Shown one piece after another: positions 1,185 to 46,780 of a DNA stretch of 47,246 nt. The stretch spans positions 1-47,246 of the forward strand of contig JAGYLU010000010.1 in assembly GCA_018400755.1 (NCBI GenBank), written 5' to 3'. The notes beneath the pieces were generated by a model. That model was not told the origin of the DNA, made no database searches, and saw only the letters and a list, made by a program, of their open reading frames with translations. The position numbers and the translations under genes are program-made. Origin of the DNA: Acholeplasmataceae bacterium. Its GTDB lineage: Bacteria > Bacillota_I > Bacilli_A > Acholeplasmatales > Acholeplasmataceae. The first letter of the stretch is position 1, and each line of letters opens with the position of its first letter.

Positions 1185-1203
1185 GTTACCCCTCCTTTGT
1201 TTT

Positions 1204-1232
1204 ATTGTATAGGAAGTTTTTACCCACGTCAA
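1204..1232 (-). promoter_or_regulatory. fic promoter
   Basis: On the minus strand TTGACG (1227-1232) and TACAAT (1204-1209) are separated by exactly 17 bases. The predicted transcript start falls about 13 bases before the ATG, so the leader is little more than the Shine-Dalgarno sequence. Confidence 0.75.
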
Positions 1233-1265
1233 CATAATGCGGGTAAATTATACTATATTTTACCC
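1219..1265. promoter_or_regulatory. Three alternating 7-bp operator half-sites over the fic promoter
   Basis: TTTACCC (1219-1225), its inverse GGGTAAA (1241-1247) and TTTACCC again (1259-1265) flank and overlap the fic -35 region. Exact 7-bp arms in alternating orientation suggest a dimeric repressor site. The Fic protein's own winged helix is an obvious candidate (inference). Confidence 0.6.
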
Positions 1266-1477: not shown

Positions 1478-3022
1478 TCATTGTTTTCTTCGTCTGAATT
1501 TTTCCAGGTAAAAGACAACCCCGATCCCCAAGCCTAAAATCATCACGGATATGATGGTCACCCAAGGGATGTTTTGATCCGCTTCCGAAACAATGACAAG
1601 AATCTCATCGCTCATCACTCTTTCTTCCAAAACATAGTTGATGGTCACCAAATACTCACCACGTTGATCAGGACTAAGAAGATAATCATTGTCACTGATC
1701 CTGATCTCTGTAATCATCATTCCCAATGCCAGATAACGCTCAGTCATGATCCTGATCAGCTCTGACTCATCAAGCACATCATCCACGGTTGTCCTGATGA
1801 TTCCATCACTGAGACTGAGTACCGGAGCAGCATCTCTCACCACATGGATATTGATGTGTTTGAGACTGGCAAGACCGTGACTGTCCTCAGCCGAAAGTGT
1901 CACCCTATAAACGCCTGGCGTCTGACTTTTCTGATACTCGTCATAGACCATCACAAGGTCAACGAACTGATTGTCAGAGACATCAAAGGCCTCATACCTG
2001 CCAATGATCTCCTCATCACTCATCGGTATGTCACTCGCATAGATGAACACATCCGGTGGTCCACTGATTTCTGGTCCTTCGTTTTCAAAGACAACCACCA
2101 TGACACTCAAAATCGTCTCATTTCCGGATGTGTCCTTGGCTTCAAACACCACCTCATAGGTCCCTGGCTCGGTCGCCCCGATCATGGCATTTGAGACAAT
2201 CCGGATATCCGATCTTGTCATCTCATCAACATCATCGGAAACGTCCAATGCCCCAATCAATACCGATGGGTCCACATCAAACGTCTCATAAGGTCCCATC
2301 TCAGTGATGACCTCAATCACCGGCGGCGTCCGGTCCACTAACGACACATCAAGGTCAAATGTCACCATGACCCCCTGGTCTTCTGCCTCATAGGTCACCA
2401 AGAACATCCCTGTGGGCGTTGTCCGCCCTTGATAGGCCTCATCATCCATTCGGATTGACAAAGGCATCCCGCCCGTTCCTGTTCCGCTCACAAGCGCACT
2501 CAAGTCATCTGAAGACGGCGGGTTGCTGGCATCAAACTCAATGGTTCCTGAACATCTTCGGTCTCTTCCAAATGGGATGAACCCAGAGAAATCCTGATAG
2601 GATCCCTCATAGATCATCGCATCATAAGATGATTCCGGCAAGACCGGAATGTTTGAGATCGTGACCTCATCGGTCGTTGCGACAAAACTCGCATGAATCC
2701 GTCTTTGGTTGACATCATCTTCAAAAGGCACATCCAAAGACACACCATCACGATCTTCGACCGACATCATCAGAAAATCCACATAACCCGCGTGCTGACC
2801 GATAAATCCATAATCGAGCACCACCGTATGCAAGACGCCCGCTTCAAGCACAATCGGATCCTTGGTGGTTGCCAGATACGTGCTGTCATCAGAGACGACC
2901 AGATTCGATAGATCAAGCAGATTCCTATTGATTTCAGTTCCAACCTCAACCGCCCTGACCTCAACGCCTCGTGTCATCACCGCCATAAACATCAGAAAAG
3001 ACATCAACAACTTATATCTCAT
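1478..3022 (-). CDS. Secreted, membrane-anchored protein with Ig-like domains
   Basis: 514 aa from the ATG at 3022, preceded by AGGAGGG; the 27 extra residues of the longer reading frame lie upstream of this site. The N-terminus (MRYKLLMSFLMFMAVMTRG) is a signal peptide. The middle holds repeated Ig/DUF5011-like beta-sandwich modules: 'TPPVIEV...PGTYEVVFEAKDTSGNET' and 'EGPEISGPPD...PGVYRVTLSAEDSHG' are typical. The C-terminus is one membrane helix followed by FRRRKQ, so most of the protein faces outside. There is no LPXTG sorting signal. It is probably a surface adhesin or structural protein; the specific role is unknown. Ig-like assignment is from residue pattern only. Confidence 0.8.
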   Translation of the reverse strand: MRYKLLMSFLMFMAVMTRGVEVRAVEVGTEINRNLLDLSNLVVSDDSTYLATTKDPIVLEAGVLHTVVLDYGFIGQHAGYVDFLMMSVEDRDGVSLDVPFEDDVNQRRIHASFVATTDEVTISNIPVLPESSYDAMIYEGSYQDFSGFIPFGRDRRCSGTIEFDASNPPSSDDLSALVSGTGTGGMPLSIRMDDEAYQGRTTPTGMFLVTYEAEDQGVMVTFDLDVSLVDRTPPVIEVITEMGPYETFDVDPSVLIGALDVSDDVDEMTRSDIRIVSNAMIGATEPGTYEVVFEAKDTSGNETILSVMVVVFENEGPEISGPPDVFIYASDIPMSDEEIIGRYEAFDVSDNQFVDLVMVYDEYQKSQTPGVYRVTLSAEDSHGLASLKHINIHVVRDAAPVLSLSDGIIRTTVDDVLDESELIRIMTERYLALGMMITEIRISDNDYLLSPDQRGEYLVTINYVLEERVMSDEILVIVSEADQNIPWVTIISVMILGLGIGVVFYLEKFRRRKQ

Positions 3023-3068
3023 ATGTATCCCTCCTGACCTATCATTGGCAAGTGATGTTTGAATTACT

Positions 3069-3095
3069 ACAAAAAAGAACCCAAACCGGGTTCTT
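3069..3095 (-). terminator. Terminator of the Gln-Gln-His tRNA operon
   Basis: Minus-strand 8-bp perfect stem (arms 3088-3095 and 3075-3082), 5-base loop, then TTTTTT. It lies just after tRNA-Gln(CTG) and upstream of the Ig-like gene. Confidence 0.85.
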
Positions 3096-3105
3096 ATTGT
3101 CATGT

Positions 3106-15817: not shown

Positions 15818-18220
15818 TCACATGTCATACCTTCTGAATAGGTCAGCCGGTGCGATTCTGGTCAGACGACTGATCGAAATCATACCGAAGAGCACATTCG
15901 AGACCATCAAAAAGAGCGCTCCAAGAAGGGCGGTGATCCCGTTCATATAGACCATATAGGTCAAAATGGTCACATTTTCGGTCCTGAGCACCAACAGGAT
16001 TCCGATGACATACCCGACCAAGGTTGTCATCACCGTGAGCACTGTGACCTCAAGCGCGAACGCCTGCTTGAGCTTTCTGGAAGGCATCCCAAGGGCGCGC
16101 ATGACGCCCATGTCATGAAGCCTTGACAACATCGATGAACGCATCATGAAAAGGACTCCGATGCCAGAAAGCAGTACGATAAACAAGGACACAAACAAAA
16201 TCGGCAAGAGTTTCCGGCTCGTATTGACAGCTGCGGTAACCGCTGATCCATAGTCCCAATCAGCGTCAAGACCTTCATCCCTAAGCGCATTCATCAGACT
16301 CAGAGGCTCATCGGTATTGATATAGACATCACCGATCGCGGACAGATACATATAATACTCGATATCGGTATTGTATCCGATAAATGGCGTGATCCCCATA
16401 TCCAGATGGTCAACATCATAAAGTCCTGAGATCACATAGGTCCGATACCGATGGGTTGTCTCATCATTGAAGGCAAAGTAGGGAATGATTGTTCCAAACC
16501 AGGTATCTGGAGCGAGCACTTCCCTTTGTCCTTCGATTGGCATCCGTCCTTCGGTGACAATAACCAATTCCGGGAATCGGTCGTATGAGAGATAGGACCG
16601 CGCGACGACCGAGGATCCCCTGGCCAATAGCGTCGCGCCATTCCTGGTGGCATAGACCCTTTGGGCTCTGGTATCGACGATGCCGCTGATCGTCATCGTC
16701 ACATTCAGAATATCGACCTTCTCACCAATCAGTTGCTGCTCATTCCAGATGCCATATCTGGTCAGAAGGTTATAACGACCGTTGGTCTCCTCAAAGACCT
16801 TGATATCGATGACGAACTCATCATCTGTTTCCGGCATATGGCCGGCAATCAGATCATGGGCATCAATATGATCGACCAGATCAATCATGCCTTCAAGATT
16901 GTAGGTCGCGGTTTCGCCTGTGATCGAAGGAATGGTGATGGGAATCGTGGTGTTCTGATAAGGGTTGATGAACAGGTCAGCCCCTTCGGATGAGGCTTCG
17001 GTGATGGTCTCAAAAGGAATCCCATAGGTTTGCTTGAAGAGTCTGACGTTTTGCTCGAGTTCCGCGACAAAGACCTCCCGGTTGAAGAAGTAATTCCCGA
17101 CGATCGATGCTGAGAAAGCGACGATCATCCCCGCCAGCAAGAAGCCCATGACGATGACTTTCCCGCTTCCAAATAGAGATAAGACCCGTCTCATCGCATC
17201 TTTGATGCTCTCCTTAAGTGATAAAACCTTGGACGCACTGGTCCGTTTCAAGCCTTCCAATGAAAGATCCTTGAACAAAAAGGCGGTATCCGTCAGAGGG
17301 TCATTGGCCTTAGAAGCATCTTCGATAATCCGTTTTTTGCCATCGACAAGCCTGACTTTCCTGACCCCTTGGGGCACATCGACAAACAAGGTGTCATCTT
17401 TTTTGATCAGCCGGATATTGAGTGAGGACAACGGATCATCGGAGTTGGAATAGACCCTGATTGGCCCGTCATCCTTGATCAGATCAAATTTGGACAGATC
17501 GATCAGATCGTTGTCTTCGACCTCAAAACGCGTCTTGACATCATTTAGGACATCACCAATCACTTTGCCGTCTTTGAGGGTGATGATCCGGTCCCCATAA
17601 TATGAGGCAATCTCAGTCTCATGGGTCACGAGAACGACAAGCCGTTCCTGTGAGATCGCCTTGATGACCTTGATGATTTCGACCGTGTTCACACTATCAA
17701 GATTCCCGGTCGGTTCATCGGCGAACACGACCTTGGGATTTTTGACGATGGCGCGGGCAATCGCCACCCTTTGCTGTTGCCCGCCGGAAAGATCAGAGGC
17801 TTTGCGGTTTTCAAAATGATCCATCCCGAGGGCATGAAGCGCATGGGCGACCTTGGCCTTGATGTCTTCTTCCTGTTCAATCCCGAGCATCCTAAGCGGC
17901 AAAGAGACGTTCATCCCAACTGTCTCATGGGTGATGAGCTCATAATTCTGGAAGATGTAACTGACGTCTTCGGTCCTTAACCGATCCCAGATCCGATCAT
18001 CTTTCTTCGAGATGATGGTGCCATCATAGCTGATCGTGCCCTGGTCAGGGGTATCAAGACCGCCCATGACATTCAATAGTGTGGTCTTGCCTGATCCAGA
18101 CGCGCCTAAAAGAACGACCAGACCTTTGTCAGGAAGTGTCAATTGAATGTCATTGATGGCGAAAAAGGGCTTCTTGTCGCCACCGATATAGGATTTGGTG
18201 ACATGGCTCAAGGTGATCAT
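15818..18220 (-). CDS. Fused ABC ATPase-permease (MacB/FtsX type), protein B
   Basis: 800 aa. The N-terminal ATPase (~1-225) has Walker A GASGSGKTT, signature [16 protein letters not shown], Walker B VVFADEPTGNLD and switch His VTHE. A linker leads to helix 1 (~352-372), a ~290-residue extracytoplasmic domain, and three C-terminal helices with the FtsX/MacB_PCD loop MRSSMLSRLHDMGVMRALGMPSRKL. This family (MacB, LolCDE, BceAB) moves peptides or lipids rather than importing nutrients. GGAGG lies 7 bases before the ATG, and the start overlaps the preceding gene by ATGA. It probably forms a heterodimer with that gene's product. Confidence 0.92.
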   Translation of the reverse strand: MITLSHVTKSYIGGDKKPFFAINDIQLTLPDKGLVVLLGASGSGKTTLLNVMGGLDTPDQGTISYDGTIISKKDDRIWDRLRTEDVSYIFQNYELITHETVGMNVSLPLRMLGIEQEEDIKAKVAHALHALGMDHFENRKASDLSGGQQQRVAIARAIVKNPKVVFADEPTGNLDSVNTVEIIKVIKAISQERLVVLVTHETEIASYYGDRIITLKDGKVIGDVLNDVKTRFEVEDNDLIDLSKFDLIKDDGPIRVYSNSDDPLSSLNIRLIKKDDTLFVDVPQGVRKVRLVDGKKRIIEDASKANDPLTDTAFLFKDLSLEGLKRTSASKVLSLKESIKDAMRRVLSLFGSGKVIVMGFLLAGMIVAFSASIVGNYFFNREVFVAELEQNVRLFKQTYGIPFETITEASSEGADLFINPYQNTTIPITIPSITGETATYNLEGMIDLVDHIDAHDLIAGHMPETDDEFVIDIKVFEETNGRYNLLTRYGIWNEQQLIGEKVDILNVTMTISGIVDTRAQRVYATRNGATLLARGSSVVARSYLSYDRFPELVIVTEGRMPIEGQREVLAPDTWFGTIIPYFAFNDETTHRYRTYVISGLYDVDHLDMGITPFIGYNTDIEYYMYLSAIGDVYINTDEPLSLMNALRDEGLDADWDYGSAVTAAVNTSRKLLPILFVSLFIVLLSGIGVLFMMRSSMLSRLHDMGVMRALGMPSRKLKQAFALEVTVLTVMTTLVGYVIGILLVLRTENVTILTYMVYMNGITALLGALFLMVSNVLFGMISISRLTRIAPADLFRRYDM

Positions 18221-20421
18221 AGACGTGCCTCCCCATCCCGGTCAAGGGCTTTGATGACAGAAAAGCCGAAGACCTTGCGGTTATACATCCTAGCGACAAA
18301 GACCGAGAGAAAGACCGAAATCACAAAGAGGATGACATACTGGTAGAAAAAGAGATAGCGCATCGCGAGACTCAACGTGTAAAGATAATGTGAGAGGATC
18401 CATAGGGCCACCACCGTGAATCCAAAGGCAATCACCCCGATCAGGACTTGCTCGAAGACCACCTGTCTTGAAAGATATGCCCTGCTCGCCCCGATCGAAC
18501 GGTAGATGGCAAAGTCTTTCTTGCGGGCAAGACTGATGTTTCTGACGACAACCCCGACCACGGTATAAAGGGCGAGCCCGACCAGAAAAACAATCGAATA
18601 AGCCAGACTCTCAAACTCCGAGGCGGTCAGGATCCGTTCCCTGGTGGTGGCGGTGAAGACGTGATAGAAGACACGGTATTCATCTTGGTCAATCATCCTG
18701 GTCAGAATCTTCCCATCGGTCAGGTCGTGGACATTCAAGACCAATGACATCGGCTCATAGTCCTCACCGAAAAACAGGTCGATCATCTCATTTTGGAAGC
18801 TTGTGCTCATGATGATGACTTCGTTTGGGGTATCGGTGACGATCACGTCATCGATACTGACCGGAAACTTGATCCGGTTGTCAAAATAAGGACCAAAATT
18901 GAACTCATAATCAACGATCTGGATTTCTCCTGGATCAGGTAACACCCTTGAAGGAATGATCACCTGTCCTTCTTCTAGGGTCGGATCGAACAGATACTCG
19001 ATACCGGAAAATGAACTCCTGACCAATTGGTCACGGTCATTGTAGTGATAATAGAAGTGTTGCTTGCGGGCAAGATTCAAAAGACCATCCAAAGCGATCG
19101 CTTTGGACTCAAAAAGACTGCTGTTGAAATAGACCGACATGTTGTTCCCGCGGATGGTTGACCCCGAAATCGTAAACGTCTCTCCATAGGTTGAGATGTA
19201 TTCGTAAAACGTCCCAAACATCAACAACTGATCACCAATTGAAAGGTCATGAAGTTCCATCGCAAGATCCGACATCACGACCTCATGTTCACCAGGGAGT
19301 GTGCCCGAAGTCAGGTCTTCCTCGTTTAGGACAACCGCGTCATCCATCCTAATCTCACCTAAGGGATAGTTCTCGCTACTGACACTTTTTCCGACCCGTC
19401 CGAATGCCCGGTAAGCCTCAAATGATGGTTCATAGATGCCCACCGACCGAATGATCGGATCGTTTTCGAAAAGAACTGGATCAAGGGCTTCCTCATCACG
19501 ACGGACAAGCCTGATCTGATGGGATGAATCGTTATCGGCGACGCCTTCACCAACCAGGATATCCTCGGAATACATAATGAAGGCATAGATAAAGATAAAG
19601 ACCCCGATCACGAGCATCTGGAGGATCAGTTGGAACAAAAAGCGACCGGGCGTCGCGAACACGTTTCTCGCCCCGGCTCCAACGAGTGTCTTCAAAGGAA
19701 TGGGATGACGGTCTTTCTTGATCAGTCCATCTTTTTCCCCAGCATCCTTGAGGGGGACATCTTCGACAATCTCGCCATCTTTCATCCGGATGTGTCTGGT
19801 CGCGTATGGCGCGGCATCGGCGAAATGATGCGTCACGAGGACAATCAGACGGTGCTTGCTGATGGCGTGAAGAAGTTTGAGCGTTTCCTCTCCGGAAACG
19901 CTATCCAGATTCCCGGTTGGCTCATCGGCGACAATCACCGGACAATCCTTGGCGATCGCCCTGGCGATCACGGCCCGTTGTTTCTCACCACCGGAGAGTT
20001 TCGCAGCCCGTTGGTGGATCCGATGTGACAACCCGACCATCTCGATCAGTTCGAGGGTTCTTTCATGTCTTTTTTTCTCATCATAGCCTTGGAGCTCAAG
20101 GGCTAGGATGATGTTTTGATAGACGGTATAGGAATCGATGATGTTGTAGTTTTGGAAGATGAAACCGATATTGTCAGCCCGGTAGGTCTCCCAGGCATCA
20201 GGGGTGTAATGGGCGGTTTCCTCACCACCGATCAACATGCTTCCTTCTTCGTATCCGTCAAGACCGCTGATGACATTCAACAGGGTTGACTTGCCTGATC
20301 CGGACTCACCGGTGATGACAACAAACTCACCAATCGAAAGATCGAGACTGACGTCTCTGAGACCGACCACGACCGACCGCTTGGCGATATAGTATTTATA
20401 GACGTTTTTGAGGGAAATCAT
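18217..20421 (-). CDS. Fused ABC ATPase-permease (MacB/FtsX type), protein A
   Basis: 734 aa. N-terminal ATPase: Walker A GESGSGKST, signature LSGGEKQRAVIARAIA, Walker B VIVADEPTGNLD. The permease part has one helix (~270-290), a ~310-residue outside domain, and a C-terminal FtsX block (SLARKKDFAIYRSIGASRAYLSRQVVFEQ). AAGGTGA precedes the ATG at 20421; 17 upstream codons overlap the leader hairpin and are dropped. The two proteins share layout but differ in sequence, which fits two subunits of one transporter. Substrate unknown; antimicrobial-peptide defence or lipoprotein/lipid handling are the usual roles. Confidence 0.92.
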   Translation of the reverse strand: MISLKNVYKYYIAKRSVVVGLRDVSLDLSIGEFVVITGESGSGKSTLLNVISGLDGYEEGSMLIGGEETAHYTPDAWETYRADNIGFIFQNYNIIDSYTVYQNIILALELQGYDEKKRHERTLELIEMVGLSHRIHQRAAKLSGGEKQRAVIARAIAKDCPVIVADEPTGNLDSVSGEETLKLLHAISKHRLIVLVTHHFADAAPYATRHIRMKDGEIVEDVPLKDAGEKDGLIKKDRHPIPLKTLVGAGARNVFATPGRFLFQLILQMLVIGVFIFIYAFIMYSEDILVGEGVADNDSSHQIRLVRRDEEALDPVLFENDPIIRSVGIYEPSFEAYRAFGRVGKSVSSENYPLGEIRMDDAVVLNEEDLTSGTLPGEHEVVMSDLAMELHDLSIGDQLLMFGTFYEYISTYGETFTISGSTIRGNNMSVYFNSSLFESKAIALDGLLNLARKQHFYYHYNDRDQLVRSSFSGIEYLFDPTLEEGQVIIPSRVLPDPGEIQIVDYEFNFGPYFDNRIKFPVSIDDVIVTDTPNEVIIMSTSFQNEMIDLFFGEDYEPMSLVLNVHDLTDGKILTRMIDQDEYRVFYHVFTATTRERILTASEFESLAYSIVFLVGLALYTVVGVVVRNISLARKKDFAIYRSIGASRAYLSRQVVFEQVLIGVIAFGFTVVALWILSHYLYTLSLAMRYLFFYQYVILFVISVFLSVFVARMYNRKVFGFSVIKALDRDGEARL

Positions 20422-20467
20422 TGGCTCACCTTCTTGTCCAAACTTTGATCTGTGGTTGTATGAAAAA

Positions 20468-20523
20468 GACACAGCGTTTCGTTGTGTCCCTATTATAGCA
20501 CAACGACAAAGACTGTGTCTTTG
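20468..20523 (-). promoter_or_regulatory. Promoter with two dyads upstream of the fused ABC pair
   Basis: Minus-strand AAGACA (20516-20521), 18-base spacer, perfect TATAAT (20492-20497). A perfect inverted repeat CAAAGAC/GTCTTTG (20507-20523) overlaps the -35. A second dyad with arms GACACA/TGTGTC (20468-20488) lies at the transcript 5' end and is followed by TTTTT, like an early terminator or a 5' stabilising hairpin. Confidence 0.6.
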
Positions 20524-21924: not shown

Positions 21925-22607
21925 CGTCCTGATGACAAGTCAGCCATCCTAGCACTACTCTATTTTTAAAATAAAGCCAATAGGATATAAACTTGTGACA
22001 TTATTTTCTCTTTGATACTTTGGAATTCTCTTTAGACCGCATCGGGATATGCTCACGCATCTAAGGCTGGAGCATCCATTGCACATCGACATATCTTGAA
22101 TATCTTTTCAAGGAGGGCAACCAGTGAAAGATGATGTTGCATCCGGTGGCTCACATACTCTTTTGAAGAAGCCCTGATAGATGTCTTAAACCACCATCAA
22201 TGATGCCACATCAAAGCCTTATCAGCAGCGGGCTGGGTATCGGCCTGTAACACCTTCTACCCACTTCAACGGCATCGCGGGTTGATGGAAGAAGCCATAC
22301 CGGAGGACGTCCTACTCTTATCATGTCATCTTAAGAGCGCTGCCACCCCGCGGCCCCACCATCAGGAAACAGAATGCTTATAGACATCTTCACAAATCGG
22401 AAGCCAATCCACCAGATGTTTCATTATCTGCTGAGTTAGTAGCGCGGTGACCCTAGTTCAGTTGAAAAAATCTATACCATGGGTGAACACGCCTTTGAAG
22501 ACATCAGCCACGTCTGAAGGAACTTCAAACGTTTCAGAAATAGATGCATGTACGCCTTGAACAAGAACATGCCAATCAAGTGATAAAAACGATATGTTGG
22601 TCATAGA
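21925..22607. other. Gene-free stretch, possibly degenerate coding sequence
   Basis: About 680 bases with no sustained reading frame on either strand. On the plus strand short protein-like runs appear in different frames (for example EHAFEDISH...RNFKRFRNRC near 22480-22550). This resembles a frameshifted gene or mobile-element remnant, but no family can be named. Confidence 0.3.
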
Positions 22608-22644
22608 AAAGAACCTTGGGAAAAGCGATCTCCCAAGGTTCTTT
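22608..22644 (-). terminator. Long hairpin, probable terminator of the chimeric lipoprotein gene
   Basis: Perfect 14-bp stem (22608-22621 with 22631-22644) and 9-base loop. On the minus strand it is followed by TTTTC, downstream of the 22778 gene. Confidence 0.65.
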
Positions 22645-22646
22645 CA

Positions 22647-22731
22647 TCCCACACAATAATTGAAAGGCTCATTTCCCACACAATAATCGAAAGGCTCAAT
22701 TAGTCATCCCACACGATTATTGAAAGGACCT
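22647..22731. repeat. Three tandem imperfect ~25-bp repeats
   Basis: Copies start at 22647, 22674 and 22707 with core TCCCACACAATAATTGAAAG; copy 2 has one change and copy 3 two. Spacing is 27 and 33 bases. They lie in the 3' region of the chimeric lipoprotein gene, next to a strong hairpin. Too few and too short for a CRISPR array. Confidence 0.7.
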
Positions 22732-22777: not shown

Positions 22778-25411
22778 TCAGTCCAATCCTAACAATTCAA
22801 TCTCATTCTTGATGGCCAGTGCGAACTCAGTCTTTGTGATCAGTCCTTTAGCAAACTGTTCATAGATGGGTCCGAGTTCATACATGCCAAACCCCGAAGG
22901 CATCTCATTGTACCATATCGCATAGGTCTTCTCTGCCTGAATCCAACCATGGACGGCTTTGCCAACCGGCCATGTCGGGGCATATGGGTTATTGATGAAC
23001 GGCGACACAAAAGAATCACTACTGGCCATAATCTGTTGGCCCTCTGGTGTCAATCCCAAGTCGCCCAAGAATTGCTTAGCGTAATTGGTATTATCAGTGT
23101 CTTTGTTCACCGCATAATATGTGAAAGCGGAGGCGAAAAGACGATCCGCGTCTCCAAGGGCCGATGCATGAGGGGCGATTCCAACCTCAAACCCCAATCC
23201 ACCTTGTATCAAAACTTCATCAACCCAGTTACCCTGATGCAAAAAGGCTGTCTGTCCCAACTTGAACGCATTCACTTGGTCACTATAGTTCCACGATGTC
23301 AGCAACACTGGATCGCTGTGATTGATTAACAGCTCAACCCAATTGGCAAGCGCGTCGAGACGGTCCACATTGACGACTCCATTGAGCAAGTCATCAATGA
23401 CGCTTCGATCATCCATAGCGAGCCCGCTACTGAGATAGCCATTGAAGTTGTGCATCCCGGTTGTCCAGTACATGCCTTCTCCAGCCGCTAAAGACACCAT
23501 ATGCTCAAGCCCATCGATGTTGGCTGCCTCAATGGCTTGGAATGCTGCCTCATAAGCGTTGATATTGATCAACGTATCAGGATCAACCCCTGCCTCATCA
23601 AGAATGTCCTTGTTATAGATCATTCCAAATCCCTCGATAATGACGGGGAACCCTATGACCTGATTGTCATAGACCCACTCAAAATCAGTCTCGCTGACCC
23701 ATTCTTGATCACTCAGATCAAGCATCTTGTTTTCCAACATGCCAAAATACTCTCCAACTGCATAGTCATCAACCATGAACATATCGGGTTGTCTATCTGA
23801 TTGTAATGCGTTCATCAAATAATCATAATACTGCTCTGGATGAGCGAGTGATACTTGGACATCCACCCCATTGGCTTCGCCCCACATGTTCGCGAACATC
23901 AACAGTGCGCTATGGTTCTGTTCTTTGTTGTGAAAAATCCAAAGCGACTGATATTCGTGCCATGATGCGTAAAGCGTCAAGTCTTCATCTAGCATGACCG
24001 TTGCTTCGAAAGGGACAGTCAATGCCTCATCCGAATACCATCCATCAAAAACAAAGTCCTCCTCATAAGGTTCAGGAAGCATCAATGGCGCACCCGCAAG
24101 CCATTGATAGTGTCGGTCTTCCTGAATGCCATTCATCACCAATGTGATGTCCTTGAACTCTGATGGATCACTGTTCCAATGCACGAAGACACCATTGGGT
24201 TTCCATGATTCATGCCAGCCCTCGGGTTCAGCGTTTATCTCGGCGAAGAAAGTCATGATGCCAGTCAGAATGAAGCCATATTTTTGAATCTGTGTGACAC
24301 TTTCCGGAATATGAAACGATGTGAGACGCGGTAGCACGGCAAAGGCATATGCCTCAATGCTCTCAAGTTGCGATATCCCTTCAAAAATCACTTGCTCAAG
24401 GTCATTCATCATGAAAAATGCAAAAGACCCAATCGACGTCACTGACTCAGGAATACGCACTGTCCGAATTTTGATGTCATCTACGACTATACCCTGATCA
24501 TCAAACATCATCATGGCTTCTTTCTCCGCATAGGTCCCAAACATCTGAGAGCCGAGACGTCTGACCGGATAGCCATCGATCTCACAAGGAATCACAACAT
24601 CTTCATTGGTTCCGACATAGGACGTGATGGTCACAGCCCCATCTTTGATGATATAGGTGAAAGGAATCCTTGTCCATCGCGCTTCAAACTCAATGCTCTC
24701 CAAGTCTTCAAAATGAAATGGAAAGTCAACTTTAAGCCCGTTATGATACCATCCATCAAAGACGAATCCGGCTTTGACCGGTTCTACCGGAGCTTCGATG
24801 ATCGATGTCTGTGACACATAAAAGTAGTCATACATCGGACCTCGTTCCTCAAAGCGGAAAACGACGCGGTGTTCCATATATGCCATCGGTGTGATGATTC
24901 GACCAGCGATATCTTCCCGTCCATCGGAATAGACAACCACCAGATCACCGGTTGCGTTCAAATAGACATTTGTGATACTGATCCCGTCTTCCCCTTTGAT
25001 GCTCTCAAGCCAATCCTCATAACTGACCTCAACGGTACCTGACTCAACCCCCGCCTCATAATATGCCATCAGTCTGAGTGTCAGTTCGTCATAGGTCATA
25101 TGGACACGAAGCGTTGTGGTGACACCTTGGTAAGTCACCACCAGATCATACGTTCCGGGCTCATCAAGCATCGCCATCTCTTCATTATCAATCATCGAGA
25201 CATCAATATCCAAAATCTCCGTCGATCCATCACTCATGGTGACAATCAACTGAATGCCCTCAAGGTCGAATGCCCCGAGTTCATAAGACTGTTGTAGCGA
25301 CGTCATATCAATCTGAATAGACTCAACTGACGGATCGCGGTCTTTCCCGCAAGCCCCGATCATCACCATCATCAACACAAAAATAACCCACCCCAACATG
25401 TGTTTCATCAT
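22778..25411 (-). CDS. Chimeric lipoprotein: Ig-like, InlB repeats, leucine-rich repeats and sugar-binding protein
   Basis: 877 aa. Lipobox IGAC (Cys21). In order: an Ig-like domain (~27-105) ending PGTYDLVVTYQGVTTTLRV; a YxDWL/GEDGIS module; an InlB/Listeria B-repeat (VKAGFVFDGWYHNGLKVDF...EARW); BspA-type leucine-rich repeats (VRIPESVTSIGSFAF, FHIPESVTQIQKYGF); a second B-repeat (EEDFVFDGWYSDEAL...LYASW); and from ~490 to the end a family-1 extracellular solute-binding protein (QPDMFMVDDYAVGEYF, GFPVIIEGFGMIYNKDIL, GQTAFLHQGNWVDEVL). No permease or ATPase gene for a sugar importer is adjacent. GGGAGGAG precedes the ATG. Probably cell-surface, combining adhesion modules with ligand binding. 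Confidence 0.9.
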   Translation of the reverse strand: MMKHMLGWVIFVLMMVMIGACGKDRDPSVESIQIDMTSLQQSYELGAFDLEGIQLIVTMSDGSTEILDIDVSMIDNEEMAMLDEPGTYDLVVTYQGVTTTLRVHMTYDELTLRLMAYYEAGVESGTVEVSYEDWLESIKGEDGISITNVYLNATGDLVVVYSDGREDIAGRIITPMAYMEHRVVFRFEERGPMYDYFYVSQTSIIEAPVEPVKAGFVFDGWYHNGLKVDFPFHFEDLESIEFEARWTRIPFTYIIKDGAVTITSYVGTNEDVVIPCEIDGYPVRRLGSQMFGTYAEKEAMMMFDDQGIVVDDIKIRTVRIPESVTSIGSFAFFMMNDLEQVIFEGISQLESIEAYAFAVLPRLTSFHIPESVTQIQKYGFILTGIMTFFAEINAEPEGWHESWKPNGVFVHWNSDPSEFKDITLVMNGIQEDRHYQWLAGAPLMLPEPYEEDFVFDGWYSDEALTVPFEATVMLDEDLTLYASWHEYQSLWIFHNKEQNHSALLMFANMWGEANGVDVQVSLAHPEQYYDYLMNALQSDRQPDMFMVDDYAVGEYFGMLENKMLDLSDQEWVSETDFEWVYDNQVIGFPVIIEGFGMIYNKDILDEAGVDPDTLININAYEAAFQAIEAANIDGLEHMVSLAAGEGMYWTTGMHNFNGYLSSGLAMDDRSVIDDLLNGVVNVDRLDALANWVELLINHSDPVLLTSWNYSDQVNAFKLGQTAFLHQGNWVDEVLIQGGLGFEVGIAPHASALGDADRLFASAFTYYAVNKDTDNTNYAKQFLGDLGLTPEGQQIMASSDSFVSPFINNPYAPTWPVGKAVHGWIQAEKTYAIWYNEMPSGFGMYELGPIYEQFAKGLITKTEFALAIKNEIELLGLD

Positions 25412-25607
25412 CTCATTGTCTCCTCCCTAATACACTCACATCTCCAATAAGGCATTCACGTTGAATGTCCTCAACACACTTAAGCATCTCGCTGTAACCA
25501 CATCCCCCTCTCTGTATCTATCATAAAATGAAGCTAATAAGTCATAACGGTTTTAGGTCTATATCTTATCACATCATCGCCTTGATGTCACATCATCAGG
25601 AATCTCA

Positions 25608-25634
25608 ACAAAAAAGTGCTCAATCGAGCACTTT
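25608..25634 (-). terminator. Terminator of the YwaF-like gene
   Basis: Perfect 9-bp stem (25626-25634 with 25613-25621), 4-base loop, then TTTTTT on the minus strand, 12 bases after the stop. Confidence 0.9.
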
Positions 25635-25645
25635 CTATGAGCGTA

Positions 25646-26353
25646 TCACAGGGTTTCAACCGTCACGGCCTGTTTCACATGGCGCCGAGCCCTGATTGTC
25701 TCATAAACATAGAGCACACCACCATGAAGGGCCAGGACAATCCATCCCAGAACAAACCAGTTCAAAGGGGTTCCTGAGAGAATGGGTGTATTGATATGCA
25801 TCGCGTCCCCATATCCGAGTTCAGAGATGAGCACGAGCCCATAGATCATGTAAAATGACAGTCCAATTGGAAACAAGTGCCACTTCTTAAGCATTGGCTT
25901 GACAAATCCAAGCCGAAACATCATGATCACCAAGAAGACCATCACGGTGTGATGGACAAGTCCGGAGATCGTCATTGGATAGAAGATGGAGTCGCTTTGA
26001 CCGATGAAATCAGGATAGATCAATGTCGTGAGTCCCCCGTAGAGACCGACAAAGGCAACACTATGGAAGAATGGTGAATCCTTTTTGAGTGTCATCGTCC
26101 CAAGTGATAGGAAGAGACTCGATGCCCCACAGAAAGACCCCGGTAAAAATCCCGAAAATGACCCTTTGGTCAACGCGATGGATGTCCTGTTCCACATGAT
26201 AGCAACAAACAACACCGCTCCGATGATCCTGATCACTAGGATGATCTTCTTCTCATCTTTCGCCATTTTGATGATCCATCTTGACAAAGGGATCATCAAA
26301 GTGATTGAAACCAACAAATAAAGTATATGTTCAATTCCAAAAATGTCCGGCAT
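25646..26353 (-). CDS. YwaF/TIGR02206-type integral membrane protein
   Basis: 235 aa, about seven helices. The family pattern is visible: LPGSFCGASSLFLSLG (usually LPLHLC), then GLYGGLTTLIYPDF and SGLVHHTVMVFLVIMM with the paired His. The function of these proteins is not established. The longer frame starting at 26503 runs back through the promoter, so the ATG at 26353, with GAGGT upstream, is used. Monocistronic, with its own promoter and terminator. Confidence 0.75.
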   Translation of the reverse strand: MPDIFGIEHILYLLVSITLMIPLSRWIIKMAKDEKKIILVIRIIGAVLFVAIMWNRTSIALTKGSFSGFLPGSFCGASSLFLSLGTMTLKKDSPFFHSVAFVGLYGGLTTLIYPDFIGQSDSIFYPMTISGLVHHTVMVFLVIMMFRLGFVKPMLKKWHLFPIGLSFYMIYGLVLISELGYGDAMHINTPILSGTPLNWFVLGWIVLALHGGVLYVYETIRARRHVKQAVTVETL

Positions 26354-26390
26354 GATTTCTTGACCTCGCATAAGAGTATGAAACGCCCAT

Positions 26391-26420
26391 AGTATACACC
26401 TTATAAGGTCAAAACAACAA
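26391..26420 (-). promoter_or_regulatory. Promoter with palindrome in the spacer, YwaF-like gene
   Basis: Minus-strand TTGTTG (26415-26420), 18-base spacer, TATACT (26391-26396). A perfect 12-bp palindrome ACCTTATAAGGT (26398-26409) fills most of the spacer, where a bound repressor would block polymerase. Confidence 0.6.
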
Positions 26421-26553
26421 GCCCGTCCAGAAAATAACCATGCTATCTGTTTGATAACATCATTGGCGTAAGACCAAACATATTCATAGAGCAGCCGCTC
26501 CAAGACGTTTCATGTCATGTGACCAGGATACGTCATGAGTCACCATGTCTGGG

Positions 26554-26623: not shown

Positions 26624-28138
26624 TCAGGACTTCGGACCTTGAAATCTCTTGTCCCTAAGAATCTGTTCGACAACTTGCTGACCGGAAAGCACCACCATCG
26701 GCATGCCCCCACCAGGATTGACAGATCCTCCGACAAAGTAGAGATTCTGATAGAAAGGACTCTTCTTAGGTGTCTTGAACCCAAGGTTCTTTTGTTTGTC
26801 GGAGATAACCCCATAGATCGATCCCTGATTGGAATAATACATCTCTTCAATCGTCTCAGGCACCCAGAGTTCCTCGGTCACGATATGCTTCCTAAGATCA
26901 TGAAGACCCATGCGTTCAAGCTTATCAAGGACATGTTCACGGTATGTATGGTATGCCTCATCGGTGAAAGGATGGTCTTTGTCAATCACCGGGATATGGG
27001 GCAGAATCTTGATGATTTCTGTGCCTTTGGGACCTTGACTCGGATCGGTCTTCATTGGCGCGACCAGATAGATGGTCGGATCTTTGGACAACCGGTGGTT
27101 ATGGAAGATGTTATCAAAGTTTTGCTTTGAATCATTTGAGAAAAAGAAGTTGTGGTGTCTTAGGATCTCATAAGGCTGATCAACCCCAAGGTGAAGAGCG
27201 AACCCTGAACAAGCTGGACCGTACTTGGCCTTGATTCCTTTGATCCGCTTCGGTTCTTCTCTTGAGATCTTTTCATAGAAAGGGATGACCTCCATGTTTG
27301 AGACCAGAAGATCGGTCTTGATCACCGTATCATCTTTCAAGACCAATCCGGTGATGGTTTCCCCTTCTTTCTCAATGGCCTTGACCTCAGTCGTTGTCAT
27401 GACCTTGATGTCAAGGGATCTGATCAGTTTCTCAAGCCCTTTCGAGAGCCCAAACATCCCATCCTTGACATACCAGAGATCATAGGTCCACTGCACATAG
27501 GGAAGGACATTCAAGACTGCGGGGGCGTCATAGGGAGAGGAACCGACATATTTGATGAAGTAATTCATGATATCGATCAGATATGGGTTCTTGATGTGAT
27601 GTCTCACCGCCTGATCCATGGTTTTGAACATATCACTGTCCTTGATGATCCGATGCCACGGATAAACCTTGAGACTTTGCAAGGGTGTCTCAATCTGGTT
27701 TTTGAAGTAGACCTGATCAGTGAAGTCATGGATATGCTTCGTGTAATCAAAGAACCGTCTCAAATCACTTAAGTCATCGGCACTGACCTTGTCGCTGGTT
27801 GTCATCTTGTCAATCGATTCAGCAAGATCAATGATGGTTCCGTCTTCAAAGATATTGCGCCAATGTGGTCTGACTGGAACAAACGTCATCACATCTTTCA
27901 GCTCTTTGCCGTGCATGGCAAAGAGTCTCTCAAAGATGTGTGGCATCGTCAGAATCGATGGTCCAAGATCAAATGAGAACCCATCCTTTTCAAGCACATT
28001 CAGTTTCCCACCCAAATGTTCATTCTTCTCGATCAATGTGACCTTGAACTGTGGATGGGCAGCGAGGCTGATGGCGGCACTCATGCCGCCCAGACCGGCA
28101 CCAAGGACTGTCACGTGGATTTTTTGCATGTTAATCAT
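26624..28138 (-). CDS. Phytoene desaturase-family FAD oxidoreductase (CrtI/CrtN/CrtP type)
   Basis: 504 aa, full family length. N-terminal FAD fold VTVLGAGLGGMSAAISLAA (GxGxxG) with EKNEHLGGKLNVL, then FDLGPSILTMP. The C-terminal signature is YFVGGSVNPGGGMPMVVLSG. These enzymes desaturate or oxidise carotenoid precursors at the membrane. Whether it acts as desaturase or oxidase cannot be told from sequence. Its ATG overlaps the stop of the upstream desaturase remnant (ATGA), so the two were one operon. No phytoene or squalene synthase gene is in the window. Confidence 0.88.
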   Translation of the reverse strand: MINMQKIHVTVLGAGLGGMSAAISLAAHPQFKVTLIEKNEHLGGKLNVLEKDGFSFDLGPSILTMPHIFERLFAMHGKELKDVMTFVPVRPHWRNIFEDGTIIDLAESIDKMTTSDKVSADDLSDLRRFFDYTKHIHDFTDQVYFKNQIETPLQSLKVYPWHRIIKDSDMFKTMDQAVRHHIKNPYLIDIMNYFIKYVGSSPYDAPAVLNVLPYVQWTYDLWYVKDGMFGLSKGLEKLIRSLDIKVMTTTEVKAIEKEGETITGLVLKDDTVIKTDLLVSNMEVIPFYEKISREEPKRIKGIKAKYGPACSGFALHLGVDQPYEILRHHNFFFSNDSKQNFDNIFHNHRLSKDPTIYLVAPMKTDPSQGPKGTEIIKILPHIPVIDKDHPFTDEAYHTYREHVLDKLERMGLHDLRKHIVTEELWVPETIEEMYYSNQGSIYGVISDKQKNLGFKTPKKSPFYQNLYFVGGSVNPGGGMPMVVLSGQQVVEQILRDKRFQGPKS

Positions 28139-29579
28139 CCTTTCTCCAAGTATTTGGATGTGATGATGGCCGACTGATAGATCGTTGGCAGCCCACTTCC
28201 AGGATGGGTGCCACCGCCAACAAGATAGAGGCCTTTGATATCCTCAAAGTTGTTATGGGGTCTGAAATACATCATCTGTGAGAGTTTGTGCGAGAGGTTG
28301 AAGACCGCCCCTTGGTAGACATTGTAATCATCTTGCCAATCTTTGGGGGTGATGATCATTTTGGTGAGCGTATGGGCTTCTAAGTCGATATCGAACTTCT
28401 TTTTGATCGACTGGTAGACAAGGCTTTCGATGTGACTTTGATAGGACGTCCAGTCTTTCGGACTCGTCATGTTTGGAAGGGGAACAAGCAGATAGAGTGC
28501 GGACTTCCCTTCTGGTGCCATTGTCTTGTCAATCACGGACGGATTATGGATGTAATAGCTGATGTCGTCGGTGAATTCGCCTTTCGAGAGCTTTCTTAGG
28601 TAGTCATCATAATCATCAGAAAAGACGATCTGATGATGACTGAATGGAAGCAGCGTATCAAGGCCCAGATAGATGTTCATGGTTGAGACCGAATAATCTT
28701 TCTTGGCCACCTTCTCATGCGTGTATGTTCTGAGTTGATCGTTATCGATCAGCTCGGTTGCCATGTATGCAAAATCAGCATTGGCGACAACCGCGTCATA
28801 CAAGACATCTTTGTCATCAACACGGATGCCATAGGCCTTCCGGTCTTTGACAAGAATCTTTTGAACAGTCGTCTTGGTCTTCACAGACCCGCCATTTCTG
28901 ATGATCAGTTCCGCCATCTTCCGGTTGATCGCATTCAATCCACCTTCCGTATGATAGAGCCCTCCATCATGTTCCAGAAAGGGGAGAAGCGAGGAAAGCC
29001 GAAGGGGCATCAAATGAAGGCCATCCGGATACTTGACACGAACCAAGGCTCGGATGACCCGGGCTCGGATTCCGGTTTGTGAGTGACTGATAGACAAGCT
29101 GAAACGGGTGATCTTGGGAAGCATACGGAGTGTATCCGCTTTGACATAATCGAAGATCGATGCAAACGACCGCTTGAGTAGCGGCGTGACCGCATCAGCT
29201 TTGCTATTCTGGACTTTTCGCCACTTAAGTACGCATCCCCGGCATCTTTGTCAGGCGTCCGGCAGGCCACTTGTTGTGCATTGATCAGTACTCAGTTCAA
29301 GGTGTGATACGGAAGGGTAGCTAGGTACAAAGGATCAAAGATTGATCGGTCAAGCTCTTTGTGAAGTCATATCCACGCCCAGTCTGAAAGACATTCTCCA
29401 AGAGGCTCGACCCATACATCAAAATGTCAGGTCGGCATCAAATGATCCATCCGATGTCAACCGCTGGGCGGCACCAACCTCATCATCTTTCTCATAGATG
29501 GTCATCGTGACCTTGTTTGATAAAGATGGGTACCTTAAGCCCCGGGTTGGCCCCAATCCACAGCAATCCGTTTGTTCAT
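28135..29579 (-). pseudogene. Second carotenoid desaturase, N-terminus broken
   Basis: The last ~329 codons (28135-29124) read cleanly and show the family C-terminus: HTEGGLNAINRKMAELI, then LYLVGGGTHPGSGLP. The FAD-binding N-terminus is missing from that frame. Upstream on the same strand, pieces of it appear in several frames: MNKRIAV at 29579, TMTIYEKDDEVG near 29500, and KRSFASIFDYVKADTLRMLPK leading into the intact part. At least three frameshifts and some lost sequence separate them, so no FAD site is made. Either a decayed gene or a poorly sequenced patch. Confidence 0.8.
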
Positions 29580-29642: not shown

Positions 29643-31898
29643 TTAAAGACACAACCGATAGACCACCAAATTTCCATGATATTGAAGAGATGCCAGCAAA
29701 ATAGAAAAACCTCCACAATGGAGTTTTGTGGCTCTCTGATGATCCGGGATGGCGAATTGATTCCAATATCTATGTACGGTCTGGTTCATAGCATCATAGT
29801 GACCTAGTTTGCCTTTGTTCCAACCCCGATTGTAACCGCCTCCCCTGACATAATGCTTCAGCGATGACGCATGAATATCAAAACAGATCTCAGCGACATT
29901 GCCGCTCATGTCATAGAGTCCAAGTTGCGTGGGACGCAATCCCCCAACCACTTGCGTGCTGTTATTCGAGTTGGCATCATACCAAGATACCGCAAGCGTC
30001 TCCATTCCATCAAACGCATCATAAGCCCGATAAGCACCAGCAGCGAAGTTTCCGGGTGTCCAGTAACCACTAGGCGTGAAAAGAGATGCTGTCAAAGGCT
30101 CGGGATCAAGGAGCATCCGAGCCGCCATGTTCCACTCGCTGTTCAAAGGCAGACGATACCCCGGATTGATACTTTGGATGGCATCATCAGCATCCGTTGT
30201 GGTTGCGTTCTTGATGATCTGATTGGAGGCGTCACGGTAGATAGGGGTATATGATGTCATCTCAGATAATGCATTCAACCAGACAATGATGTCCCGATAA
30301 GAGATATCCGTCACCGGAAGCGACTGACCAGAAGGCATGGCCCCAACGATGCCGTGGGATCCTTCCCGACCAAGATTCGAAAAGACATACCCTTGGGTTT
30401 CTCCCCAACGTCTGACCTCATACCAAACCGAATATGTGGTCTCGATAACGGCTATCCTAAATCCACCCCTGACATCATCAATCCCATCATCAGCCTCGTC
30501 TGAGGGGACAGTGTAGTTCATCCCTGAGCCCACCGGGGCGGTGGTGATTGAAAGCCAATCGGCGTAGAGGGTCGCGTCATTCTCAGGGGCATGGGTGACC
30601 CTGGTGGTCAGTGATGAATCCTGGTACCAACCAGCAAAGACATGTTCATCCCTGGTCGGAAGAAAGGACATCAGTGATGTGCCGATTGGCACATCCGCTT
30701 GGTCGATATGGGTACCACCATTGTTGATAAAACTCAGACTCACCGTTTCCAATGCCCAACCCGCATAAATCGTCATATGGACATCGGGCAGGGTATCAGA
30801 GTCATAGGGGATGAGCAATGACTCATCCTCATACCAGCCCGTGAAAAGATGATTGGCCAAAACCGGATCATCCGGTTTTTCAAAAGGATCCCCGGGATGA
30901 CCGCTCAGAGGCAAGACCTCTGAACCGTCATAGGTCTCAAAGGAAAGTGTGACATGCCATAATGCATAAAGGGTCAGATCATGGGCTGGCATCCGTCCAA
31001 AATCGTATGGTTCTGTCCCCTCTAGATCCAAATACCATCCCGCAAACGTCTGTGAATCCTTGACTGGATCATCAGGTTCAGGCACGAAGGTGTCAAAGAC
31101 GACATCAGCCGGGTCAATCAGTGACCCTCCCACTGTGTCATAGGTCACGGTATAGGTCAAAGGTGTCCATTTCGCATAGAGTGTCAAATCATGAGCCGGC
31201 ATGTCACCAAAGACATAAACAGTCTCGTAAGTCGGACTCAAATACCATCCATCAAAGGCGTATCCCTCGTAGGTCGGTTCAGCGGGAGGAACAACCACAG
31301 TGTCATATAACACATCCGAAGACACAAGTTCAGATCCCCCCATGGTGTCATAGAGGACCGTGTATGACAAGGTCTCCCATCCGGCATAAAGGGTCAAATC
31401 ATGGGCTGGCATATCACCAAATTCGTGCAAGATCTCACGGGCAGCATCCTCATACCATCCGGTAAACGCATGTCCATCATAGATCGGATCCATGGGCGGT
31501 TCAGTCTCTTCCCCATAGTGATAAGATGCGTTCTCGATGGTGCTTCCGCCGGTATCTTGATAAATGATCTGATAGATGGCAGGTGTCCAATACGCATAGA
31601 CAGTGACGTCCTGTGCGTCCTCATCAACGACATAGGTCGTGATGTCAAAAGGGTCTTTGAATGTCTGATCGTCTAGAAACCACCCTTCAAACACATAGCC
31701 CGTCCAAATCGGATCATCGGGCCAAACACTCAAATCACTGCCATCAAAGGCAATCGGATCAATTGCTGGTCCGCCATGAACTTCAAAGGCGATGTTCACG
31801 ATTTTCTGGATGATGTCTTCCTCATCACAAGATGTCATCACGAAGGTTGAAAGAAGAAGAAAAACGAAAAACATGGTCTTCATCAGTTTTCCAAACAC
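29643..31898 (-). CDS. Lipoprotein with six InlB B-repeats and a formylglycine-enzyme-like domain
   Basis: 751 aa. Lipobox MTSC (Cys24). Six ~65-residue B-repeats (~32-440), each with the (F)xGWYxD and LTLYAxW pattern. The rest (~455-735) is a FGE-sulfatase/SUMF1-type domain: WGETQGYVFSNLGREGSHG, SLPVTDISYRDIIVWLNALSE, NPGYRLPLNSEWNMAARM, LGLYDMSGNVAEICFD, YVRGGGYNRG. The paired active-site cysteines of true formylglycine enzymes are not evident (one Cys near the end), so it may bind a ligand rather than oxidise cysteine. GTG start, chosen because GGAGG lies exactly 7 bases upstream; the next ATG is too far away. Confidence 0.9.
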   Translation of the reverse strand: MFGKLMKTMFFVFLLLSTFVMTSCDEEDIIQKIVNIAFEVHGGPAIDPIAFDGSDLSVWPDDPIWTGYVFEGWFLDDQTFKDPFDITTYVVDEDAQDVTVYAYWTPAIYQIIYQDTGGSTIENASYHYGEETEPPMDPIYDGHAFTGWYEDAAREILHEFGDMPAHDLTLYAGWETLSYTVLYDTMGGSELVSSDVLYDTVVVPPAEPTYEGYAFDGWYLSPTYETVYVFGDMPAHDLTLYAKWTPLTYTVTYDTVGGSLIDPADVVFDTFVPEPDDPVKDSQTFAGWYLDLEGTEPYDFGRMPAHDLTLYALWHVTLSFETYDGSEVLPLSGHPGDPFEKPDDPVLANHLFTGWYEDESLLIPYDSDTLPDVHMTIYAGWALETVSLSFINNGGTHIDQADVPIGTSLMSFLPTRDEHVFAGWYQDSSLTTRVTHAPENDATLYADWLSITTAPVGSGMNYTVPSDEADDGIDDVRGGFRIAVIETTYSVWYEVRRWGETQGYVFSNLGREGSHGIVGAMPSGQSLPVTDISYRDIIVWLNALSEMTSYTPIYRDASNQIIKNATTTDADDAIQSINPGYRLPLNSEWNMAARMLLDPEPLTASLFTPSGYWTPGNFAAGAYRAYDAFDGMETLAVSWYDANSNNSTQVVGGLRPTQLGLYDMSGNVAEICFDIHASSLKHYVRGGGYNRGWNKGKLGHYDAMNQTVHRYWNQFAIPDHQRATKLHCGGFSILLASLQYHGNLVVYRLCL

Positions 31899-44425: not shown

Positions 44426-46769
44426 TCACACTGATGACATGTTGCCATCAGTTGCCTGTTTGGAGTCACGGACTGCCGCAACATACAAGGTTGATCCAAA
44501 ATCAGACATCAGCCTGGTGTGATCATTTTGATCAGTGCCCATGAACTGCTGACTGAGTTTGAGTCCTCGCATCAGGTGTTCACCGGATGCCACATACCGC
44601 TCTTTGGCTCCTCCTGAACCGATGTCCCAAAGCATTGAAGAGCACGCCTTCAGGTTTACAGATTTGATTGGCAAGAGACGTGACTGACCAGATCTTAAAG
44701 CGTGTTGAGATACTTTGCTCAAAGGCGTTATTCCTCATAGACCTTGTCACGTTCAGGTGATGAACCAGTAGTGATGTCAACGTCTCAGGACTTGGTTACA
44801 ACAAGATTGAAACATCGATGATATATTCATCCCGTATATCTTTGGAACATGATACTCGTTGTCTCTTTGGTCTTGTTAGATCTGGAAATGTTGAACTGAA
44901 ATGTCTTGCGGTGGGTTTTGTAAGTGATCATTTGTGGTCAAGCTTTTTCTCTCTTGGGGTGATGAACTTGGGGATTGAGTTCATATCCCAACTACCAAAC
45001 AACGATCAGAACTGGTTGAAAGCGGCGATGTCTGATCACGGTTTGGGCATGCCGAGACTAAAGACGCGTAGCTGATGACCGATGGCTGATGAAAATGAAT
45101 GATGCTTCTCCCTGGATGGCAATGAAATTGGATCGGTGTTGTCCGAGGCCCAGATCTGCGGGGTGTAATAAAGCATGCCAAGGTCAAAGCGGTTGCCGCC
45201 CGAGGCACAACTCTCAATCAGTAGCTCCGGATGTTTTGCCCTGATTCTTTCAAAGACCTGATAAAGACCAAGGATATAGGCATGAAAAAACATGCCTTGA
45301 TCCCTTAAGGTCGGGCTATGCATGTCGGTGATGTGCCGGTTCATATCCCACTTCACATAGCTGATGTCATACGTGTCCAAAAGGCCTGTGATCTTTTCGA
45401 CGATCCGGTCTTGGACCGCTGGTCTCGAGAGGTCCAAGACCAGTTGGTTCCGCCCCTTCTCGGGCAGTCTTCCAGGAACTAGAATCGCATGGTCGGGGTG
45501 GGCCTTATAATAGTCACTTTCGGGGTTGACCATCTCCGGCTCGACCCAGATGCCGAAGGATAGGCCCTGTTTTTTGATTTTTGATATTGGCTTTGTCAAG
45601 CCCTTTTTGAACTTCTTGCGGTTGACGTTGTAATCTCCAAGACCCTTGGTGTCATCATTTCTTGTTGAGAACCAGCCGTCATCCAAGACGACCGTCTCAA
45701 CCCCAAAGGACTTGGCCTTTTTGGCAAAAGACAATAGTTTCCTTTGATTGATGTCCATGAAGTACGCTTCCCAGGTGTTCATCACCACCGGTCTTTCTTT
45801 CATCTTGAATGCCTCAGGCACCAGATGATGGTTCACAAACTGATGAAAAGACTTTGACAGATCATTTAAGCCCTTTGATGAGAAACTGATTACCGCTTCC
45901 GGGGTCTCAAACGTCTCATTTGGTCCAAGCGGCCACGAGAAGGCGTGAGGATTGATACCGGTCATCACCCGCACGAGACCATGATTCGAGACCTGGATGG
46001 CCCCATAGTGGTTTCCACTATAGATCAGATTGATGCCAATGCAATCCCCATGATCCTCATGGGTATGCTTCTTGGCCAGGATGATCCCTGGATTATGGCG
46101 GTTGGATGAGTTTCCGGTGGTTGAGTCAATCACATAAGTGCCTTGAAACAAAGGTTGTCTGGTGGCATTGGCTTCCTTGATCCATCCCCCGTAAAGAGAG
46201 ATGAGGTCATAATCCTTCCCATAGACATCCATCATCATGCTCATGATCTTCCTGATCTCAACAGGTTTGTCACTTGTGTTCTTCAGGACTGTCCGTCTCG
46301 TATAGACATCCGCGTCTGGATAGACGGTGTAGACCAAGGTCAGTTCCAAAGGGAAAAGCGCATCTTCCAATACGATCTCAAGTGTCTCAGAGTCACACGC
46401 CCCACGACCATGAGGCATCCCCTTGGGAGGGATGATGCCTTTGGTGATGCGGTGCGTCTTATAGATGAAATCGGTGACGAATGTCCCATCTGGCATCTTC
46501 AGTTCAAGCGGGGTGAGCCGGAAATCCCCTTTCCCAATCCCTGAGTATTCCATAGGAAGCATATCAAGAAACACCTTGTGTCCGTCCCGCTCATAAAGCG
46601 TCGCGGTCCCAACCCCGGCATCAAGCTTGATGGACAAGTCCTGATCATCTTCTGGTCTCAAACGGTTTCCAAGATAAAGGTGTTCAATCTGTCCTGTAGG
46701 CACAATCTTCATGATGTAGTCCAAGTGTTTGGTTGAGAGATGAATGATGTTGTTATCAAATGTGATCAT
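44426..46769 (-). pseudogene. GH36 alpha-galactosidase, C-terminal part frameshifted
   Basis: The clean part (45120-46769, ~550 codons) has the GH36 core: nucleophile Asp in YVKWDMNRHITD and acid/base Asp in IWASDNTDPI. After that the frame breaks, but the family's C-terminus continues in other frames: ASLVSACPNRDQTSPLST near 45080, GYEL near 45010, and SGEHLMRGLKLSQQFMG...SDFGSTLYVA (44470-44590). At least three indels. An intact enzyme would hydrolyse melibiose or raffinose-type sugars. AGGGAG precedes the ATG at 46769. As written, the protein would lose its C-terminal beta domain. Confidence 0.88.
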
Positions 46770-46780
46770 GGGTTCTCCCT

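Follow-up and report, generated by a model that had tools for sequence, protein, structure and literature searches.

The fused gene and its surroundings

The window, that is, the whole stretch of DNA analysed here (47,246 nucleotides), corresponds to one entire contig (C2) of the draft genome of an Acholeplasmataceae bacterium, which comprises 2.23 Mb in 239 contigs and is 95% complete. On its minus strand, positions 22778–25411 encode an 877-aa lipoprotein in an intact open reading frame under translation table 11; since the frame is already intact under this table, a reading with code 4 (TGA as tryptophan) was dropped. All features of this gene given below lie on the same strand. The sequence reveals a strong ribosome-binding site, AGGGAGGAG (25420–25428), 8 bases 5′ of the ATG, and a putative signal peptide with a lipobox-like IGAC motif in residues 1–21 (25349–25411). 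The gene is flanked by two terminator-like hairpins, one upstream, after a TMEM164-family gene (25605–25640; −14.2 kcal/mol, z −4.8), and another downstream (22606–22660; −25.5 kcal/mol, z −5.1). Neither is among the output of a consensus terminator scan. The gene is probably a separate transcription unit.

Several neighbouring elements deserve mention in their own right. Between the stop codon of the fused gene and its terminator there is an imperfect 27-base tandem repeat of 3.1 copies (22635–22727), which has a partial copy on contig C1 (80% over about 50 bases). The TMEM164-family membrane protein is encoded immediately upstream of the fused gene (25646–26503, minus strand), and farther along lie two adjoining phytoene-desaturase-type (CrtI family) genes (26624–28138 and 28135–29124, both on the minus strand), in the second of which the family models are matched by their C-terminal part alone. 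A Fic/DOC-family protein (SoFic-like; 123–1235, minus strand) is encoded by DNA of 33% G+C against about 47% around it and, judging by this low G+C, was perhaps acquired. A GH36 melibiase-like enzyme (45036–46784, minus strand) is encoded some 20 kb from the fused gene, close to the end of the contig.

Domain architecture and the surface-protein stalk

The encoded protein consists of a Big_3 domain, an InlB repeat, BspA-type leucine-rich repeats (LRR), a second InlB repeat, and a complete family-1 solute-binding protein (SBP; about residues 488–877), in this order. The Ig-like, InlB and BspA-LRR modules that the original prediction had assigned to the N-terminal half all score above the Pfam cut-offs, though the match to the LRR covers a short region of 68 residues. 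The Big_3 Ig-like domain (residues 47–104; 25100–25273) reaches 22.7 bits against a cut-off of 21.2, and the LRR (residues 314–381; 24269–24472) are recognized by LRR_5 with 42.2 bits (cut-off 27.7). Flg_new, the Pfam profile of the InlB B-repeat, gives 47.4 bits (cut-off 27) over two stretches; the first repeat, about residues 184–246 (24674–24862), was placed with the help of other proteins of the genome, and the second (residues 445–482; 23966–24079) is the better of the two stretches. Thus, the proposed profile search recovered every named module type with Pfam, and NCBIfam agrees, with a MalE-like match at 488–796 and List_Bact_rpt in two stretches. AlphaFold2 assigns residues 170–467 a pLDDT mostly below 50, from an alignment that holds no relatives of the N-terminal half.

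The first 174 residues (24890–25411) form a leader module common to large surface lipoproteins. All nine compared surface proteins, of 530–2212 aa and taken from the same genome and its relatives, match it at 26–38% identity. A Pfam scan of eight of the nine found InlB repeats in seven, two of which also bear LRR_5, while Pfam gives no match in the leader-sharing proteins L199 and L052, the latter from the same genome. With InlB repeats, BspA-type LRR and the shared leader all present, the fused protein belongs to a set of modular surface proteins. The InlB/BspA-type lipoproteins of this kind (e.g., L194, L197, and L052) have the same leader, InlB repeats and partly LRR_5, but, unlike the fused protein, they carry no SBP head. 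In two other proteins of the genome, an InlB module is joined to RCC1-like repeats.

InlB repeats are also combined with an FGE-sulfatase-like (SUMF1-type) domain in three proteins of the genome, one encoded in the window (29643–31898, minus strand) and two elsewhere (L170:1237-2889 and L172:957-2939). Another protein of the window (1478–3103, minus strand) shows weak matches to the Ig-like surface domains InlK_D3 and Bact_surface_Ig-like.

The sugar-binding head

The C-terminal half of the protein (residues 488–877; 22781–23950) had been described as a complete family-1 sugar-binding protein, and both profiles and structure prediction, together with the NCBIfam match, bear this out. SBP_bac_8 matches residues 511–805 (E 7e-16; 49.9 bits, cut-off 26) and SBP_bac_1 residues 512–792 (59.2 bits, cut-off 27). 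AlphaFold2 predicts residues 487–877 at a pLDDT of about 95, with the two-lobed fold of an SBP apparently intact. In VIA-align, the predicted head matches sugar SBPs over its full length; the best match is the solved structure 7eho_B (Z 34.5 over 371 residues), and RafE and MsmE are also near the top.

The head has its nearest relative in the same genome, a stand-alone 417-aa SBP encoded on contig C90 (53% identity), whose gene is located directly behind two BPD_transp_1 permease genes. A tree of 82 SBPs places the C90 SBP next to the fused head as its sister (support 100/93); the end branch of the fused head measures 2.1, the longest of all, and that of the C90 SBP 0.26. The tree program warns about the placement of long rows, and the long branch of the fused head makes its position less sure. 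The head is a duplicate of a C90-type SBP. The two are homologous over the whole head and share the same fold, but SBPs of the C90 type, which are MalE-like and linked to GH65 and GH13 genes, stand alone, possess their own signal peptide and are located beside permeases, whereas the fused copy has no operon. Accordingly, the latter groups with the C90 subfamily in the tree but has neither its conserved N-lobe positions nor the neighbouring permease pair.

A scan of named genomes with the subfamily alignment found 302 relatives, the best 80 of which were kept; an earlier scan of named genomes that used the whole fused protein had found no relative. The gene neighbourhoods of these 80 loci were characterized by annotating one representative of each gene cluster, except for the MalK-like ATPase, whose name is a reading of its sequence, and the counts are lower bounds, many loci being cut by contig ends. 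Both permeases of C90 have homologues, interpreted as orthologues, in at least 68 of the 80 loci, the best matches being 65–73% identical. GH65-type genes are present in at least 45 loci, LacI regulators in at least 34, beta-phosphoglucomutase in at least 28, GH13 genes of the sucrose-phosphorylase/TreS kind in at least 23, sugar kinases in at least 20, and MalK-like ATPases in at least 10. Because the related operons carry GH65 and beta-phosphoglucomutase genes, an alpha-glucoside was probably the ligand of the ancestral SBP, and the C90 subfamily most likely imports alpha-glucosides that are split by phosphorolysis. The genome itself has one GH65 gene, which is not beside C90 but on contig C196, where it adjoins a HAD-family gene. 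Most of the named relatives that have the SBP as a separate protein are metagenome bins whose titles read Tenericutes, Izimaplasma/Izemoplasmatales, Bacilli or Clostridia; they indicate no host.

Isolation from import permeases

No BPD_transp_1 permease is encoded within 12.7 kb of the fused gene. The nearest permease pair, farther away, is part of a phosphate-type (Pst-like) operon, and the nearest ABC ATPases (15818–20472) are FtsX-fused and of the exporter type, in keeping with the earlier observation that the gene has no import permease or ATPase nearby. Among the 16 SBP_bac_1 hits of the genome, 14 have two same-strand permeases within 4.6 kb and one is at a contig end, which leaves the fused SBP as the sole complete hit with no permeases nearby. 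Candidates for a MalK-type ATPase are present elsewhere in the genome. For the distant ABC importer that had been envisaged as a possible partner, there is now a concrete candidate, namely, the permease pair encoded on C90 next to the SBP most closely related to the fused head.

Lobe-specific divergence

The limits of the lobes in the head were set by homology to MBP, with the help of alignments. In these terms, the two strongly diverged parts of the head, residues 488–592 (23636–23950) and 763–812 (22976–23125), both belong to the N-lobe. Compared with the C90 SBP, the N-lobe of the fused head is identical at 56 of 152 positions (37%), and the C-lobe at 147 of 233 (63%). The C90 SBP itself shows no such contrast against the 80 relatives, with median identities of 0.55 (N-lobe) and 0.54 (C-lobe), and none of the 81 other sequences has an N-minus-C lobe difference larger than that of the fused head. 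At sites with a consensus of at least 70%, changes restricted to the fused copy affect 32 of 75 positions in the N-lobe versus 16 of 118 in the C-lobe (Fisher p 1.3e-5), while changes restricted to C90 number three and four, respectively. Positions conserved in at least 95% of the other sequences are broken by the fused copy in 17 of 78 cases, mostly in the N-lobe, compared with 14 of 81 in the next highest sequence and 2 of 78 in C90; some of the N-lobe changes fall at positions invariant in 81 of the 81 others.

Recombination that replaced the N-lobe in one step does not account well for this pattern, since a conserved C-lobe stretch separates the two diverged N-lobe stretches, and since residues 488–580 match nothing elsewhere in the genome but the C90 SBP, at 33%. 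The divergence of both stretches argues instead for a changed function or a relaxed constraint in this lobe.

How rare is the fusion?

A search for the same architecture elsewhere, proposed together with the original prediction, found none in the 80 named loci (the best of 302), in 160 genomes of the order or in 395 genomes of the class. All 80 named relatives are stand-alone proteins in ORFs of 411–515 aa. In the order, 12 of the 160 genomes have the subfamily, with 13 matches that include one fragment at a contig end; no genome but the source genome has a second copy, and the copy in the window is the only fused one. In the class, 32 of the 395 genomes have the subfamily, and the 33 matches other than the fused copy, out of 34, lie in ORFs of 410–494 aa. 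Two other genomes of the genus contain no subfamily member, one of these genomes being only 67% complete. The entries returned by a literature search list no paper on such a fusion.

Nevertheless, the statement that domains of these kinds are normally found in separate proteins turned out to be too strong, as some UgpB-like SBPs of the same bacterial order carry Ig-like stalks, and one an InlB repeat. Long SBPs were surveyed in 17 genomes at least 90% complete, which gave 113 SBP_bac_8 matches; 41 ORFs of at least 550 aa (36 from the relatives and five from the genome itself) were scanned with home-made InlB and LRR models that scored their positive controls. One sequence of the survey, L242, is truncated where its contig begins. 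An InlB repeat was detected in one of the 41 ORFs (L209, 767 aa; G064:C50, L209:2639-4939), which is UgpB-like by NCBIfam and adjacent to permeases, and LRR in none of them. Bact_surface_Ig-like domains precede the SBP in L206 (G004:C37, L206:2422-4278) and in L225 of the genome itself (C167, L225:454-2376), UgpB-like by NCBIfam, both again with permeases adjacent. Like the fused protein, these three UgpB-like proteins are lipoproteins whose C-terminal SBP is preceded by surface-type modules, but they belong to another SBP subfamily, have adjacent permeases and lack LRR. SBPs of about 1000 aa found in the order (L190, L191, and L192 in this genome) likewise combine a long N-terminal extension with a C-terminal SBP; their N-terminal half has no Pfam match and neither InlB nor LRR, and the three of this genome have adjacent permeases. 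InlB/Ig stalks are possibly a general way to mount SBPs in this order. The fused gene stands apart in that an SBP of the alpha-glucoside type is mounted on an adhesin-type stalk with LRR, that an operon is lacking, and that the change is lobe-specific.

In the same survey material, the 670-aa ORF L223 (genome G015) looks, by its sequence, like a permease fused to a polyamine-type SBP.

A surface receptor derived from an importer?

These observations suggest that a part of an importer has turned into a surface receptor. We assign a probability of about 0.47 to the reading that the fused protein derives from an importer and serves at the surface, as a glycan receptor or adhesin-like binder, rather than as a dedicated importer SBP. 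In this view, an alpha-glucoside ABC importer (the C90 operon) gave rise to a second copy of its SBP, and the mature domain of this copy was attached to the kind of N-terminus that surface lipoproteins of this bacterial family typically have. The result would be a lipid-anchored Ig/InlB/LRR stalk bearing a Venus-flytrap sugar-binding head. With the N-lobe remodelled and the C-lobe of the importer kept, the head most likely binds another glycan, in the role of a surface receptor. The full course of events within one lineage, from the duplication of an importer SBP and its grafting onto a stalk, through its separation from the operon, to the remodelling of the N-lobe that made it a non-transport surface glycan receptor, with the C-lobe half-site kept and the parent copy little changed, is proposed tentatively. 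The fusion, the duplication, the distance from permeases, the contrast between the lobes and, by prediction, the intact fold are established here; surface exposure, glycan binding, changed specificity and loss of coupling to transport are inferred. The sisterhood with C90, the lack of permeases nearby, the flanking hairpins, the surface leader, the contrast between the lobes and the predicted well-folded head would all fit a receptor. On the other side, a C-lobe 63% identical to that of C90 is what continued docking would give, and the fast change can equally reflect relaxed constraint.

The C-lobe identity also underlies the main rival, which we consider less likely, that the protein is a second, transport-competent SBP docking on the permeases of C90 (or on others) and widening the ligand range, its modules being a mere spacer or stalk. 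Since stalked UgpB-like SBPs exist beside permeases, such stalks are compatible with transport operons, and a stalk alone implies no loss of transport; MalK-type ATPase candidates in the genome could serve here as well. However, every other complete SBP_bac_1 hit of the genome has neighbouring permeases and the fused one does not, and the N-lobe, only 37% identical to that of C90, has changed at positions invariant in all 81 other sequences. In the maltose system, the N-lobe too contacts the permeases, which also speaks against a docking SBP with so altered an N-lobe.

Less probable still is a decaying duplicate under relaxed constraint, in which ligand binding is fading or already gone and the head persists solely as a structural part of a surface protein. 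The longest end branch of the 82 (2.1 vs. 0.26 for C90) and the 17 changes at 78 highly conserved positions would agree with decay, but the 877-aa frame is intact, the predicted fold is confident, and general decay would not be expected to spare one lobe and concentrate the change in the other. Finally, a mis-assembly joining two genes near residue 488, which the original prediction had named as a refutation and which is conceivable in a draft genome of 239 contigs and for an architecture known from one genome only within the surveyed sets, is very improbable on indirect evidence, as the junction preserves the frame and coincides with the beginning of the mature SBP domain, the two halves are alike in GC (0.465/0.470) and GC3 (0.51/0.54), the SBP half is just 53% identical to the C90 copy and so is not that copy mis-joined, and the repeats within the gene are short and imperfect.

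If the fused protein is indeed a surface glycan receptor, the C90 SBP and its fused duplicate would represent a before-and-after pair, within one genome, of the passage from a transport protein to a surface receptor, and the receptor reading predicts which lobe changed its specificity. Whatever the function, SBPs have acquired surface-protein stalks repeatedly in this order, and such mounting bears on how SBPs work in bacteria whose lipoproteins may face the medium directly.
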